Assembly: GCF_001984125.1 (NCBI RefSeq)
Contig: NZ_MTQL01000007.1
Coordinates: 620,001 to 684,000 of the forward strand
DNA from: Leifsonia sp. ALI-44-B
GTDB taxonomy: Bacteria > Actinomycetota > Actinomycetes > Actinomycetales > Microbacteriaceae
Length of the DNA stretch: 64,000 nucleotides
Reading direction: 5' to 3'
Made by a program: the position numbers and the translations under genes. Below the pieces are notes generated by a model, which was not told where the DNA came from, did no database searches, and worked only from the letters and a program-made list of their open reading frames with translations. Below, one piece after another: positions 2,505 to 35,877 of this stretch; within the stretch, counting starts at the first letter, position 1, and every line of letters starts with the position of its first letter.

Positions 2505-2599
2505 CGGTCTTGTGAATCCCCTCCTCAGGGGCGCCGCTTCTTCCTAACGTGGGGTCCGCGAGCAAACGTTCGTGACGCATGACGAAGGGAGAAATCATC

Positions 2600-2785
2600 A
2601 TGGCAGATCAGAGTAACCCGGGTCAGTTCGGCAACCGCGAGGACACCGAAGAGCAGGCTAGCAAGGGCGGCCAGGCGAGCTCCGGCAGCTTCGGCAGCGA
2701 GAATTCCGCAGACCCCAGCGAGGCCGGCAAGAAGGGCGCAGAAGCCCAGCCGACCGAGGCGAAGGCAGAGGGCGGCCGCAACTAG
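2600..2785 (+). CDS. KGG-motif general stress protein, 61 aa
   Basis: This small, highly charged, Gly/Ser/Glu-rich protein has two imperfect copies of the KGG stress motif: GQFGNREDTEEQASKGGQ and GSFGSENSADPSEAGKKGA. The motif (family of B. subtilis GsiB and fungal Con-10) marks hydrophilic, probably disordered stress proteins. The start is ATG 2600 because GAAGGGAGAA precedes it with good spacing; the ATG at 2579 has no ribosome-binding site. The upstream region holds a hairpin and palindrome, and a terminator follows at 2800. Together with the DUF2795/SDR pair further right, it suggests a general stress regulon in this region. Confidence 0.8.
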   Translation: MADQSNPGQFGNREDTEEQASKGGQASSGSFGSENSADPSEAGKKGAEAQPTEAKAEGGRN

Positions 2786-2799
2786 GTCGCGCATGCGGG

Positions 2800-2830
2800 C
2801 GGGGTGGGGAGCGTGCTCCTCACCCCGTTT
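2800..2830 (+). terminator. Stem-loop terminator between converging genes
   Basis: CGGGGTGGGGAGC (2800-2812) pairs with GCTCCTCACCCCG (2815-2827) with one mismatch, followed by TTT. It sits between the KGG gene and the converging TetR gene and could serve both. Confidence 0.6.
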
Positions 2831-2846
2831 GTGTTGCCCGGGTTTG

Positions 2847-3419
2847 TCAGCGACCGGGCTGCGCGCGCAAACCGCGGTCGACGAGATCGATGAGCCACTC
2901 GAAGCTGTCGTCGATGTCTTCGGCCCAGCGAAAGCCACCCGTCGATTGGATGCTCGCGAACCCGTGGAACATGCTGCGAACGGCGCGCAGCGCGTGGGTG
3001 GACTGCTCGGGCGCCACATCGTATCCCCGCAGCACGGCCCGCAGCGGGCGCAGGCCCTCGGCCGCCGCGAGCGCGAGCGGGTCGCCGGGGCCGAGGGGCT
3101 CGAAACTGACGGTGGCGGCATAGCGACCCGGATGCGTGAGCGCGAAGTCCCGCAGCGCGTGGGCCGCGGCGGCGAGCGCATCGCGACCCGCGAGCCCCTG
3201 GATGGCGGCACCCATCGCCTCGCCCGCTTCGGTGAGCGCCAACGTCGCGATCGCACGGTTGAGGTCGGCCTGGTTCTCGACGTGTTTGTAGAGCGACGGC
3301 GTGCGCACCCCGACGCGCTGGGCGAGCGCTCCCATGCTGAGCGCCGCGAAGCCGATCTCGTCGGCCAGGTCGGCGCCCGCGGCGATGACGGATGCGCGAT
3401 CGAGGCCCGCCCTAGGCAT
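2847..3419 (-). CDS. TetR-family repressor with WHG-type C-terminal domain
   Basis: This 190-aa regulator has an N-terminal TetR helix-turn-helix (LDRASVIAAGADLADEIGF ... LAQRVGVRTPSLYKHV) and a C-terminal ligand pocket with the FHGFASIQSTGGF segment that defines the WHG (TetR_C) subfamily. The ATG at 3419 overlaps the last 8 nt of the upstream hydrolase gene, so the two are translationally coupled in one operon. A pair of palindromic operators lies in front of that operon (4282-4322), which is the expected autoregulatory arrangement. A longer N-terminal extension up to 3482 is possible in frame but lacks family support. Confidence 0.85.
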   Translation of the reverse strand: MPRAGLDRASVIAAGADLADEIGFAALSMGALAQRVGVRTPSLYKHVENQADLNRAIATLALTEAGEAMGAAIQGLAGRDALAAAAHALRDFALTHPGRYAATVSFEPLGPGDPLALAAAEGLRPLRAVLRGYDVAPEQSTHALRAVRSMFHGFASIQSTGGFRWAEDIDDSFEWLIDLVDRGLRAQPGR

Positions 3420-28491: not shown

Positions 28492-29697
28492 TCAGCTAGC
28501 TGTAGGAGACCGTAACGTTACTGACGGTCGCCGATACGAGGCCGGGACCGTGCGCCGGCTGAGCGTCCAGGTTAGTAGTCCGCAGAGGGCGAAACTTGCG
28601 CCGAGAACGGCACATCCTGCCCACCCCGAGGTGGAGTAGATCGTGGTGGTGGCGGTCGCGCCGAGAGCGGAGCCGAGCGAGTAGAAGATCATGTAGCCGC
28701 CGATGGTGCTGCTGGTCTGTTCCGAGTAAACGGCGGTGAGTAGGGACTGATTGCTCACGTGCACGGCCTGGACCGCGAAGTCTAGGACGATGACACCGAC
28801 CACGACTAGCCAAAGCGACCAGGTGGCCTGCCCTGATGCGATCCAGGACAGGGCCAGCAGCGCGAGCGCCAAACCGGTCACGGAGTTGGCTCGGCCGCAA
28901 TCGGCCCATCCGCCAGCCCGCGCAGCTCCCAGTGCGCCAGCGAGCCCGGCGATTCCGAACAGGCCTATCTGGGCCGTGCTCAGTTCCCACGGTTCGGCAG
29001 CCAGTGGCAGCGCCAGCGCGCTCCAGAGCGTGCCGAAGGAAGCGAAGAGGAAGAACGCGATCATCCCGCGCGAGATGAACAGCGGCTCGCGGAAGAGGTG
29101 CCCGAATGAGGTCAGCACGTCTCCGTAGGTCCTGCGGTTCGACCGGTGGTCTGCTGGTAGCCGCTTCAGTACGGCGATCGAGAGCACGACGAGGAGCAAC
29201 ATGAGCGTGATGTAGATGCTTCGCCACCCCCACAGGTCGGTGAGAACCCCGGCCAAGACTCGGGCCCCGAGAATTCCGATGATGACTCCCGAGGTAACGA
29301 TCCCGAGCGTGCGCCCACGCTCCGCGGGCGTCGACAGATCAACAGCGAATGCGACGGCGGTTTGCACGACGACCGCGAAGAGCCCCGTCGCGGCGAGACC
29401 GATAAGCAATAGCCACACGTCTGAAGAGACCGCGGCCACCAGCATGCCGATGGCAGCGAGAATGAGTTGGGCCCCGATGAGCTTGCGCCGATCCAGCATG
29501 TCTCCCAAGGGGACGAGGACAGCCAAACCCGCCAGATAGCCGATCTGTCCAGTTGCCACGATCCAACCCAGGTCGGCCTCGGGCACTCCTAAGTCTTGAC
29601 CGATCTGCGCGAGCACTGGCTGGGCGACGTAGATCGTCGCGACAGCAACCGAGCAGACCATCGCGAGTAACAACCTTGAGCCATGCGAGCGTTTCAC
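28492..29697 (-). CDS. MFS transporter (drug/solute efflux type)
   Basis: This 401-aa protein has 12 hydrophobic segments of the major facilitator superfamily, with the loop 2-3 motif PLGDMLDRRKLIGAQ and the VTSGVIIGILGARVLAGVLTDLWGWR motif C-like region of antiporters. The start GTG 29697 follows TTGGAG. It is divergent from an HxlR regulator, with a candidate operator between them (29724-29750), a usual efflux-plus-sensor layout. Codon choice is less biased than in neighbouring genes (more AG-ending and T-ending codons), suggesting recent acquisition. Substrate unknown. Confidence 0.88.
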   Translation of the reverse strand: MKRSHGSRLLLAMVCSVAVATIYVAQPVLAQIGQDLGVPEADLGWIVATGQIGYLAGLAVLVPLGDMLDRRKLIGAQLILAAIGMLVAAVSSDVWLLLIGLAATGLFAVVVQTAVAFAVDLSTPAERGRTLGIVTSGVIIGILGARVLAGVLTDLWGWRSIYITLMLLLVVLSIAVLKRLPADHRSNRRTYGDVLTSFGHLFREPLFISRGMIAFFLFASFGTLWSALALPLAAEPWELSTAQIGLFGIAGLAGALGAARAGGWADCGRANSVTGLALALLALSWIASGQATWSLWLVVVGVIVLDFAVQAVHVSNQSLLTAVYSEQTSSTIGGYMIFYSLGSALGATATTTIYSTSGWAGCAVLGASFALCGLLTWTLSRRTVPASYRRPSVTLRSPTAS

Positions 29698-29723
29698 ACC
29701 ATCTCCAATCAGTAGCAATTTGC

Positions 29724-29750
29724 AACCGTTCTCACTATGGCAGAATGGTT
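29724..29750. promoter_or_regulatory. Candidate HxlR operator
   Basis: AACCGTTCT (29724-29732) and AGAATGGTT (29742-29750) form a 9-bp inverted repeat with one mismatch around 9 nt. It lies midway between the divergent MFS and HxlR start codons, where a regulator could control both. Confidence 0.55.
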
Positions 29751-29776
29751 TCGTTCTGCAACTTATCGGAGGCGTA

Positions 29777-30232
29777 ATGGATCAAGTCGTATCGATTGAC
29801 GACGTGACCTGGACTGACCCCACGTGCCCAGTCGCGCGGACGCTCGACCTCGTCGGAGACCGGTGGAGCCTGCTGATCATTCGCGACGCGATGGACAACG
29901 CGCGGTCGTTCACGGACTTCCAGCAGCGCACCGGGGTCGCGCGCAACATCCTCACCGACCGGCTTCGCCGCCTCGTCGACCACGGCATCCTCGAGCGAGA
30001 GACGGCGATCTCCGGACGCCGGCAGATCTACGTCCTTACCGAAGCGGGCCGCGACCTCTTCACGACCATCGTGGCAATGCGTCAGTGGGGCGAGCGACAC
30101 GCGTTCGCCGACGATGAAGCGCATTCCGCTCTCGTGGACGCGAGCGGCACCCCCGTGGGCCGACTGCGCCCGACCGACGCACACGGTCACCCGGTTGACG
30201 TCGACTCAACCGAAGTCATACGTAACCGCTAG
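29777..30232 (+). CDS. HxlR-family transcriptional regulator
   Basis: This 151-aa winged-helix protein contains the HxlR signature CPVARTLDLVGDRWSLLIIRDA with its N-terminal Cys, and the DNA-contact helix RTGVARNILTDRLRRLVDHGIL. These dimeric regulators sense reactive or aromatic compounds, often via that Cys. A C-terminal ~40-residue extension after the wing is rich in Asp and Arg. The start ATG 29777 follows GGAGG. Divergent from the MFS gene, which it probably represses. Confidence 0.9.
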   Translation: MDQVVSIDDVTWTDPTCPVARTLDLVGDRWSLLIIRDAMDNARSFTDFQQRTGVARNILTDRLRRLVDHGILERETAISGRRQIYVLTEAGRDLFTTIVAMRQWGERHAFADDEAHSALVDASGTPVGRLRPTDAHGHPVDVDSTEVIRNR

Positions 30233-30268: not shown

Positions 30269-30374
30269 TTGGCGCCGCCGCGGCCGCGTGTTAGTTTTCT
30301 CGCGGACATGTGACTGGTCATGCAGGCAGGATCCGACAATTCGTGCACGTTGCGCGAGGTCGGGTCCTTTTTTT
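30269..30374 (+). promoter_or_regulatory. Antitermination leader of bgl operon (promoter, RAT, terminator)
   Basis: A promoter TTGGCG-N17-TAGTTT (30269-30297) is followed by a ribonucleic antiterminator (RAT) with the conserved core GACTG....GCAGGCA (30304-30333). The RAT overlaps the left arm GGATCCGAC (30329-30337) of an intrinsic terminator whose right arm is GTCGGGTCC (30359-30367), ending in seven Ts. The two structures exclude each other. A BglG/LicT-type protein is encoded in this same operon, so it would bind the RAT and allow read-through when beta-glucosides are present. Confidence 0.88.
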
Positions 30375-30416
30375 GTGCCCGGAACGGTCCTGACAACCCC
30401 GGTTCAAGGAGGATCC

Positions 30417-33984
<3,568 letters not shown>

Positions 33985-34026: not shown

Positions 34027-34857
34027 ATGCAGATCATCAAGAAGGTGCTCAACTCGTCCGTCGTGCTCGTCGAAGACGAGCGCGGCGTCGAGCGGGTGCT
34101 GCTCGGCAAGGGCATCGGTTTCGGTCAGAAGGCCGGAACCGCCCTGCCGTCGACCGCCGCGGACCAGGTGTTCGTGGCGCTCGACGACTCCGACCACCGC
34201 AACCTCGTCGAACTGCTGGCCCAGATTCCCGCCGAATACGTCGAACTCACGCGTGCCATCGTGGCGGATGCCGAGGCCTCCGGTCTCGAACTCGACCCGC
34301 ACATCTACCTGACGCTCACCGACCACCTGCACTTCGCGGTGGACCGGCAGCGTCGGGGGCTGTTCGTGGCCAACCGGCTCGCGTGGGAGATGCGCACCGT
34401 CTACCCCACCGAACACGCCGTCGGGGTGCGCGCCGTCGATCGGCTGCGCGAGCGGCTGCAGGTCGAGCTGCCCGCCGAGGAGGCCGCCAACGTGGCCTTC
34501 CACCTCGTCAACGCCGAGGTCGGCAAGGTGGGCATCGACTCCCAGCGCGTCGTGCAGCTCATCGCCCAGGTCACGCAGATCGTGTCGCACACGAGCGGCG
34601 TGCGCGTGAACCGCGACGATCTGCACTCCTCGCGGTTCGTCGCGCATCTGCAGTACTTCGCCGAGCGGTTCTTCGCCGGCAAGCTGCTCACGAGCGAGGA
34701 CGACTTCCTGTTCCGCAGCCTGAGCGAGCGCTACCCAGCGGCCGTCGCCTCGGCCGAACGGGTGCGCACCTTCGTCCGTCACGAATATGACGCCGATCTC
34801 CCCAACGAAGAGGTCGCGTTCCTCGCCCTGCACATTGCACGGGCGTCATCCGAATAG
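34027..34857 (+). CDS. BglG/LicT-family transcriptional antiterminator
   Basis: This 276-aa protein has an N-terminal co-antiterminator RNA-binding domain (MQIIKKVLNSSVVLVEDERG ... GKGIGF, residues 1-55) and two PRD domains (about 65-170, 175-276) with histidines (DHLHFAVDR, TEHAVG, HLQYFAERF, ALHIARA) that receive phosphates from HPr or EII. It would bind the RAT in the operon leader. The start ATG 34027 matches the family N-terminus and has GGAG upstream; other in-frame starts add only unrelated residues. It sits between the glucosidase and HPr genes. Confidence 0.92.
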   Translation: MQIIKKVLNSSVVLVEDERGVERVLLGKGIGFGQKAGTALPSTAADQVFVALDDSDHRNLVELLAQIPAEYVELTRAIVADAEASGLELDPHIYLTLTDHLHFAVDRQRRGLFVANRLAWEMRTVYPTEHAVGVRAVDRLRERLQVELPAEEAANVAFHLVNAEVGKVGIDSQRVVQLIAQVTQIVSHTSGVRVNRDDLHSSRFVAHLQYFAERFFAGKLLTSEDDFLFRSLSERYPAAVASAERVRTFVRHEYDADLPNEEVAFLALHIARASSE

Positions 34858-34885: not shown

Positions 34886-35149
34886 ATGGCACAACGCACC
34901 ACCACCGTCGCCTCGTCCGTCGGCCTGCACGCCCGCCCCGCCGCCGTGCTCGCCAAGGCCGTCGCCAAGACCGGCCACGAGGTCACCCTCACGGCCAAAG
35001 GCAAGACCATCGACCCGAGGAGCCTGCTCTCGGTCATCGCGCTGTCGATCGGCCACGGCGACGAGGTCACCCTCGACGTGACCGGTGACGACGCCGAGCG
35101 TGTCGCCGACGAACTGCAGGCGCTGCTCGAGTCGGACCTCGACGCCTAG
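34886..35149 (+). CDS. ptsH: HPr phosphocarrier protein
   Basis: This 87-aa protein is HPr: His15 in SSVGLHARPAAVLAK receives phosphate from enzyme I, and Ser46 (PRSLLSVIALSI) lies at the regulatory kinase position. In many actinobacteria ptsH is at a separate locus, so its presence inside a sugar-specific operon is notable. It follows the antiterminator gene and overlaps the phosphatase start by 1 nt. Confidence 0.92.
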   Translation: MAQRTTTVASSVGLHARPAAVLAKAVAKTGHEVTLTAKGKTIDPRSLLSVIALSIGHGDEVTLDVTGDDAERVADELQALLESDLDA

Positions 35150-35877
35150 TGCCCTCCGTCGCGCGCATCCATTTCGTCCGGCACGCCGAGACGCTGTTCA
35201 ACGTCAACCGCCAGCTGCAGGGGTGGTGCGATTCGCCGCTCACCGAACGCGGTGAACGCCAGGTCGCCGCGCTGGGCGAGTGGATGCGTGAGGTGCCGCT
35301 GACCGCGGCGTTCATGAGCGACCTCACCCGCACGCGCACCACCATGGCGGGCGCGCTGATCGGCCACCCCGACCTCGAGCCCGTGCCCATGACGGCGCTA
35401 CGCGAGTGGCACTACGGCGGATGGGAGGGCCAGCCCAACCCCGACATGTGGACGCCCGTCTATGCCGACCACGGTTTCACCTACAAACCGGGTTCGGGCA
35501 GCTGGCCCGCGCTCACGACCGACAGCTTCGACCACGTGATCGACTCGATCCACGCGCACGATCCGCTCGGTCGGGCCGAGACATCCGCTCACGTTCGCGC
35601 GCGCGTCGAGACGGCCTTCGAGACCATCCTGGCCGAGGCTCGCTCGGGTTCTGGCGACGTCATCGTGGTCACGCACGGCACCATGCTGGGCAGCCTCCTG
35701 CGGCACCTCGTGCCCACCAATGTGGCCCCACCCTCGGGCTACCCCAACTGCGGCATCGTCACGGCCACGGTCACCTGGCCCGACGCCGACGCCCCGGATG
35801 ACGCGGCCTCAGCTGCTGCGCTCAGCTACACCGTCACGCTCGCCGACGTCGACGGGTCGAACGCGACCCCCGCCTAG
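35149..35877 (+). CDS. Histidine phosphatase (phosphoglycerate mutase-like)
   Basis: This 242-aa histidine phosphatase has the catalytic FVRHAETLFN near residues 9-18, the DLTRTRTTM arginine segment, the acid in ALREWHYGGWEG and the second His in VVTHGTMLGSLLRHL. It begins with GTG 35149, overlapping the ptsH stop by 1 nt, so it is translated in the PTS operon. Such enzymes dephosphorylate sugar or other small phosphates; here it could act on excess sugar-phosphate. Specificity unknown. Confidence 0.9.
   Translation: MPSVARIHFVRHAETLFNVNRQLQGWCDSPLTERGERQVAALGEWMREVPLTAAFMSDLTRTRTTMAGALIGHPDLEPVPMTALREWHYGGWEGQPNPDMWTPVYADHGFTYKPGSGSWPALTTDSFDHVIDSIHAHDPLGRAETSAHVRARVETAFETILAEARSGSGDVIVVTHGTMLGSLLRHLVPTNVAPPSGYPNCGIVTATVTWPDADAPDDAASAAALSYTVTLADVDGSNATPA

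Follow-up and report, generated by a model that had tools for sequence, protein, structure and literature searches.

The window, a stretch of 64,000 nucleotides from Leifsonia sp. ALI-44-B, an actinobacterium near Okibacterium, carries on its forward strand a leader followed by a run of beta-glucoside genes (Table 1). The candidate targets of control, a PTS permease gene (EIIBCA) and a metabolic gene (GH1), both lie downstream of the leader, and the genes follow each other closely, with in order a 14-nt overlap, gaps of 42 and 28 nt and a 1-nt overlap. The permease matches best NCBIfam TIGR01995, at 596.8 bits, slightly below the cut-off of 614.7. LicT, the sole CAT_RBD protein of the genome, obtains 257.6 bits with the NCBIfam LicT equivalog NF046042, below the curated cut-off of 300; this is still its best-scoring family, and we thus consider the protein as a member of a LicT-like subfamily rather than as the curated equivalog. 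In an alignment with 1TLV, each of the four histidines in the PRDs of B. subtilis LicT has a histidine counterpart in this protein, those of PRD2 being located by two Asp positions in the 1H99 chain. An earlier note on this DNA had placed the antiterminator gene inside the controlled operon; licT indeed belongs to the same tightly spaced run, from which positive feedback may fairly be inferred. The genome also encodes two EI N-domain genes and four HPr-like domains, including one in the gene run, so that with the EII phosphorylation control is feasible. A search with PF07475 (HPr kinase) gave no match in the genome, and the same search was silent in the B. subtilis control as well. The HPr-like gene is present in the run at 13 of 28 related actinobacterial loci and at none of the Firmicutes loci; it would place a phosphocarrier under a switch that it may itself help regulate.

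Table 1. Features of the bgl locus (positions in the window) and of related Microbacteriaceae loci (positions in each locus)
Feature	Position	Strand	Basis and remarks
Putative promoter: -35-like TTGGCG (30269-30274), spacer 17 nt, -10-like TAGTTT (30292-30297)	30269-30297	+	Sequence; position relative to the RAT kept in relatives
Ribonucleic antiterminator (RAT), 31 nt, GGACATGTGACTGGTCATGCAGGCAGGATCC	30304-30334	+	Sequence, conservation, folding
Intrinsic terminator hairpin (-24.5 kcal/mol), its left arm overlapping the RAT at 30329-30334	30329-30367	+	Folding
Seven-T run of the terminator	30368-30374	+	Sequence
Ribosome-binding site AAGGAGG of the EII gene	30406-30412	+	Sequence; EII ATG at 30417
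Beta-glucoside-type PTS permease EIIBCA (bglF/bglP-like)	30417-32546	+	Pfam PTS_EIIB, PTS_EIIC, PTS_EIIA_1
GH1 6-phospho-beta-glucosidase (bglA/bglH-like)	32533-33984	+	Profile matches; 14-nt overlap with the EII gene
BglG-family antiterminator LicT, CAT and two PRDs	34027-34857	+	PF03123 and two PF00874 stretches
HPr-like phosphocarrier, within the gene run	34886-35149	+	Profile matches
Histidine-phosphatase-family protein, final gene of the run	35149-35877	+	Profile match, neighbourhood
Canonical RAT/terminators of other Microbacteriaceae	L074:5903-5990, L078:1111-1200, L080:16497 (-), L082:5923, L075:2070 (-), L083:8354 (-)		

The sequence-level observation, a RAT with an overlapping terminator ahead of a bgl operon, is confirmed. 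Direct reading of the leader finds the two RAT core elements exactly as previously described, GACTG at 30312-30316 and GCAGGCA at 30322-30328, and both are kept in relatives. The GGATCC which closes the RAT is also the opening of the terminator left arm, in agreement with the overlap claimed before, and the T-run ends 42 nt before the EIIBCA start codon. The promoter, also announced by the earlier note, can be read as well and is the weakest part of the leader anatomy, with 7 of 12 consensus matches. It was not flagged by a generic sigma-70 scan; the generic promoter/terminator scan, a weak one, lists no + strand terminator inside the gene run and overlooks the leader's own terminator too. In 21 loci, promoter-like hexamers nevertheless recur at a near-constant distance from the RAT; their summed score is 159, whereas 1000 mononucleotide shuffles give 101.7 +/- 4.4. 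Since the rows are related, this score is not to be taken as a probability. The -10-like element lies 6-8 nt before the RAT in most loci, which probably places the transcript 5′ end at or next to the RAT; judging from this spacing, no more than about 2 nt are likely to separate that end from the first RAT base. In S. mutans licT-bglP, the transcription start lies 7 nt downstream of the -10 and precedes the RAT by 4 nt (PMC1489936). Upstream, the leader adjoins a divergent pair of genes for an MFS transporter and an HxlR-type regulator (28492-30232), which was not found at the corresponding locus of O. fritillariae; beyond the promoter, the two loci differ in their upstream DNA.

The leader is more stable than expected by chance, its minimum free energy having a z-score of -3.1, with 1 of 200 shuffles equally stable. 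The RAT hairpin is attainable when forced, at about -5.2 kcal/mol, and the RAT and terminator folds are mutually exclusive, bases 30329-30334 being common to both. Free, and taken without its T-run, the leader folds at -27.6 kcal/mol, against -18.7 kcal/mol when it is forced into the RAT fold, which is thus 8.9 kcal/mol less stable. In all 28 actinobacterial leaders GGATCC is common to both folds and the terminator is favoured by 6.4-9.0 kcal/mol. The earlier note had made its reading depend on such a competition; found in 28 of 28 leaders, it leaves that reading standing. With the RAT fold about 9 kcal/mol worse, a protein is needed to hold the RAT, and the LicT model predicts precisely that the RAT loses without help. 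This weighs on the idea that the leader is a protein-independent RNA switch, a riboswitch or T-box-like element instead of a LicT target. Such elements would also display alternative folds, as this leader does, yet something must hold the RAT, a search of the leader against Rfam, with the gathering score as well as with E values up to 1, found no matching family, and the leader is strictly tied to licT (see below). We find this explanation barely credible.

Conservation gives further support to the antitermination switch. The core GTGACTGGTNNNGCAGGCA has one exact match in the 3.33-Mb genome; the remaining matches carry two mismatches and are about as numerous as for a reversed control pattern. 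Among LicT relatives taken from GTDB genomes, the RAT and terminator precede EIIBCA-GH1-LicT in 27 of the 27 actinobacterial loci with upstream DNA, in Okibacterium, Cryobacterium, Rathayibacter, Herbiconiux, Microbacterium, Pseudoclavibacter, Subtercola, Frigoribacterium and the micrococcacean Pseudarthrobacter. Sixteen Firmicutes loci, mostly Clostridia and three Streptococcus, have the same gene order behind a closely similar RAT. The aligned leaders are almost invariant in the RAT and the outer terminator arms, whereas the inner stem and loop differ in sequence and length and still pair. The consensus fold accordingly displays little covariation, because the RAT and outer arms hardly vary; within the clade, the RAT varies too little to be tested for covariation.

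A covariance model of the leader (R1) was searched in 199 Microbacteriaceae genomes and in a phylum sample. Leader RNA was found in 12 of the 199 family genomes, and a CAT_RBD gene in 11 of these 12 as opposed to 4 of the remaining 187 (Fisher p about 4e-14, a value computed on genomes that are not independent). In the twelfth, the leader lies on an 8.2-kb contig that ends ahead of the expected licT position. All R1 RNA matches (13/13) precede an EIIBCA gene. In the phylum sample, R1 did not find the leader elsewhere, save for one false match: this candidate (L071), the only one outside the family, is terminator-like and has neither RAT nor EII gene.

Two further explanations can be considered. 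The hairpin could be a constitutive intrinsic terminator, for example of an upstream transcript, lying beside a chance RAT-like sequence, with the EII promoter downstream of it; terminators are common between genes, and the 42 nt between T-run and EII start may house a promoter. However, the RAT/terminator register is kept in all relatives, the left arm being always the GGATCC of the RAT while inner stem and flanks vary, and the leader RNA tracks CAT proteins across genomes. Moreover, even O. fritillariae has other genes upstream of the leader, hence the terminator does not serve one upstream gene. We consider this explanation very improbable. That we have here a switch of the family which has decayed or become constitutive in this strain is likewise very improbable: every gene has an open frame, with 97-100% identity to its O. 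fritillariae counterpart, and the RAT and T-run are intact, matching those of intact relatives.

Given the anatomy of the leader, the exclusion between its folds, their conservation, the co-occurrence with LicT and the domain make-up of this protein, we consider the locus as a LicT/BglG-type transcription-antitermination switch, with a probability of about 0.94. The leader switch is of the familiar BglG/LicT kind and well preserved, and its former interpretation as a bgl antitermination switch is supported. Its operation, including promoter use, read-through, sugar and phosphorylation control and feedback, can be proposed by analogy with the family. RNA polymerase would start at or beside the first RAT base and transcribe first the RAT and then the terminator. 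In the absence of active LicT, the hairpin of the latter would form with the last six RAT bases in its left arm and transcription would stop after 30374. Uptake of beta-glucosides would drain EIIBCA of phosphate, PRD1 of LicT would lose its inhibitory phosphate and the protein would dimerise. Its CAT domain would then clamp the RAT hairpin, blocking the terminator left arm and allowing read-through into the genes for EIIBCA, 6-phospho-beta-glucosidase, LicT and HPr; LicT made from the read-through transcript would provide positive feedback.

These properties recall those of several known systems. In the B. subtilis bglPH/licS system (structures 1L1C, 1H99, 1TLV, 6TWR), LicT is likewise composed of CAT-PRD1-PRD2 with four conserved histidines, and the RAT likewise overlaps an intrinsic terminator and controls a beta-glucoside EII and a 6-phospho-beta-glucosidase. 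On the other hand, licT is here third in the operon and followed by an HPr gene. The 31-nt RAT differs too, having the form GGACATGTGACTGGT...GCAGGCAGGATCC which is that of the bgl clade, and residues 8-10 of CAT are N-S-S, not N-N-N. The comparison with LicT/BglG sites retains the core nACTG...GCAGGC but not the B. subtilis type, the RAT here being a diverged form. In C. acetobutylicum bglGTH, read-through by BglG-RAT has been tested with reporters, so that the same architecture is known to work, and the RAT 3′ end likewise builds the terminator; unlike here, bglG comes first and the two RATs are canonical, of GGATTGTTACTG...CAGGCGAGACC type (PMC12628678). Transcript mapping of S. mutans licT-bglP has revealed a short terminated transcript without inducer and a requirement for LicT; the start is near the RAT, as probably here, and licT is upstream of the RAT, unlike here (PMC1489936). 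Parallels also come from Clostridia and relatives (Faecalibacterium, Lachnospiraceae; L031, L034-L046), with the same order EIIBCA-GH1-LicT, a near-identical RAT core ACATGTnACTGGTnnnGCAGGC and CAT residues N-S-S or N-Y-S. The clostridial bgl loci found are without the terminal HPr gene, and LicT identity is 46-54%.

Clostridia with these CAT residues display a RAT form similar to that of the bgl clade, while Streptococcus combines N-A-N with GGCATGTAACTGGT...GCAGGCATAACC. In the same family as our strain, six other antiterminators (L074, L075, L078, L080, L082, L083) carry CAT N-N-N together with a canonical RAT, GGAT[TC]GTTAC[TC]G...GC[AG]GGC[AG]A[AG]ACC. At these loci the RAT, of pattern GGATTGTTAC[TC]G...GC[AG]GGCAAAACC or a near variant, likewise overlaps a terminator ahead of a PTS EIIBCA gene, and the antiterminator gene precedes it. 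Among these canonical RATs, CTG/CAG is in some cases replaced by CCG/CGG; the exchange is compensatory and speaks for the RAT hairpin itself. No RAT was found with the pattern used near four additional antiterminator genes with CAT N-N-S or N-N-N (L076, L077, L079, L081), which may use yet another RAT form. Asn9 of LicT has been cited as a hotspot validated by experiment (PMC12261489). Comparison of these sequences suggests two mutually insulated specificity classes. We tentatively propose, at somewhat less than even odds, that RAT and CAT have co-diverged into a class of their own, N-S-S/N-Y-S with ACATGTnACTGGT...GCAGGC[AG][GA]GATC versus N-N-N with GGATTGTTAC[TC]G...GC[AG]GGCAAAACC, a co-variation seen across few clades, few of them independent. 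If true, some Microbacteriaceae genomes that possess both classes (G073 and G187) would need them insulated. The conserved leader, strictly tied to licT, and the canonical RAT class present in the same bacterial family form a natural pair in which to test how cross-talk between BglG-family proteins is avoided.

In the protein tree, actinobacterial LicT form one clade beside LicT of Clostridia and Streptococcus, far from other actinobacterial antiterminators. This position and the patchy occurrence suggest, without proving it, an acquisition from Firmicutes. No account of this leader in Microbacteriaceae turned up in a search of the literature outside subscription journals. Our results extend a switch known from Firmicutes and enterobacteria to Microbacteriaceae and Micrococcaceae, where its occurrence is patchy; the comparative support for this is strong. 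The switch could possibly serve as an inducible switch for high-GC actinobacteria. Two Microbacterium loci (L015 and L017, about 2505-3324 on the - strand) also contain, directly upstream of the bgl leader, another LicT-like gene that is divergent (29% identity), with EII- and GH1-like genes beyond it in L017.
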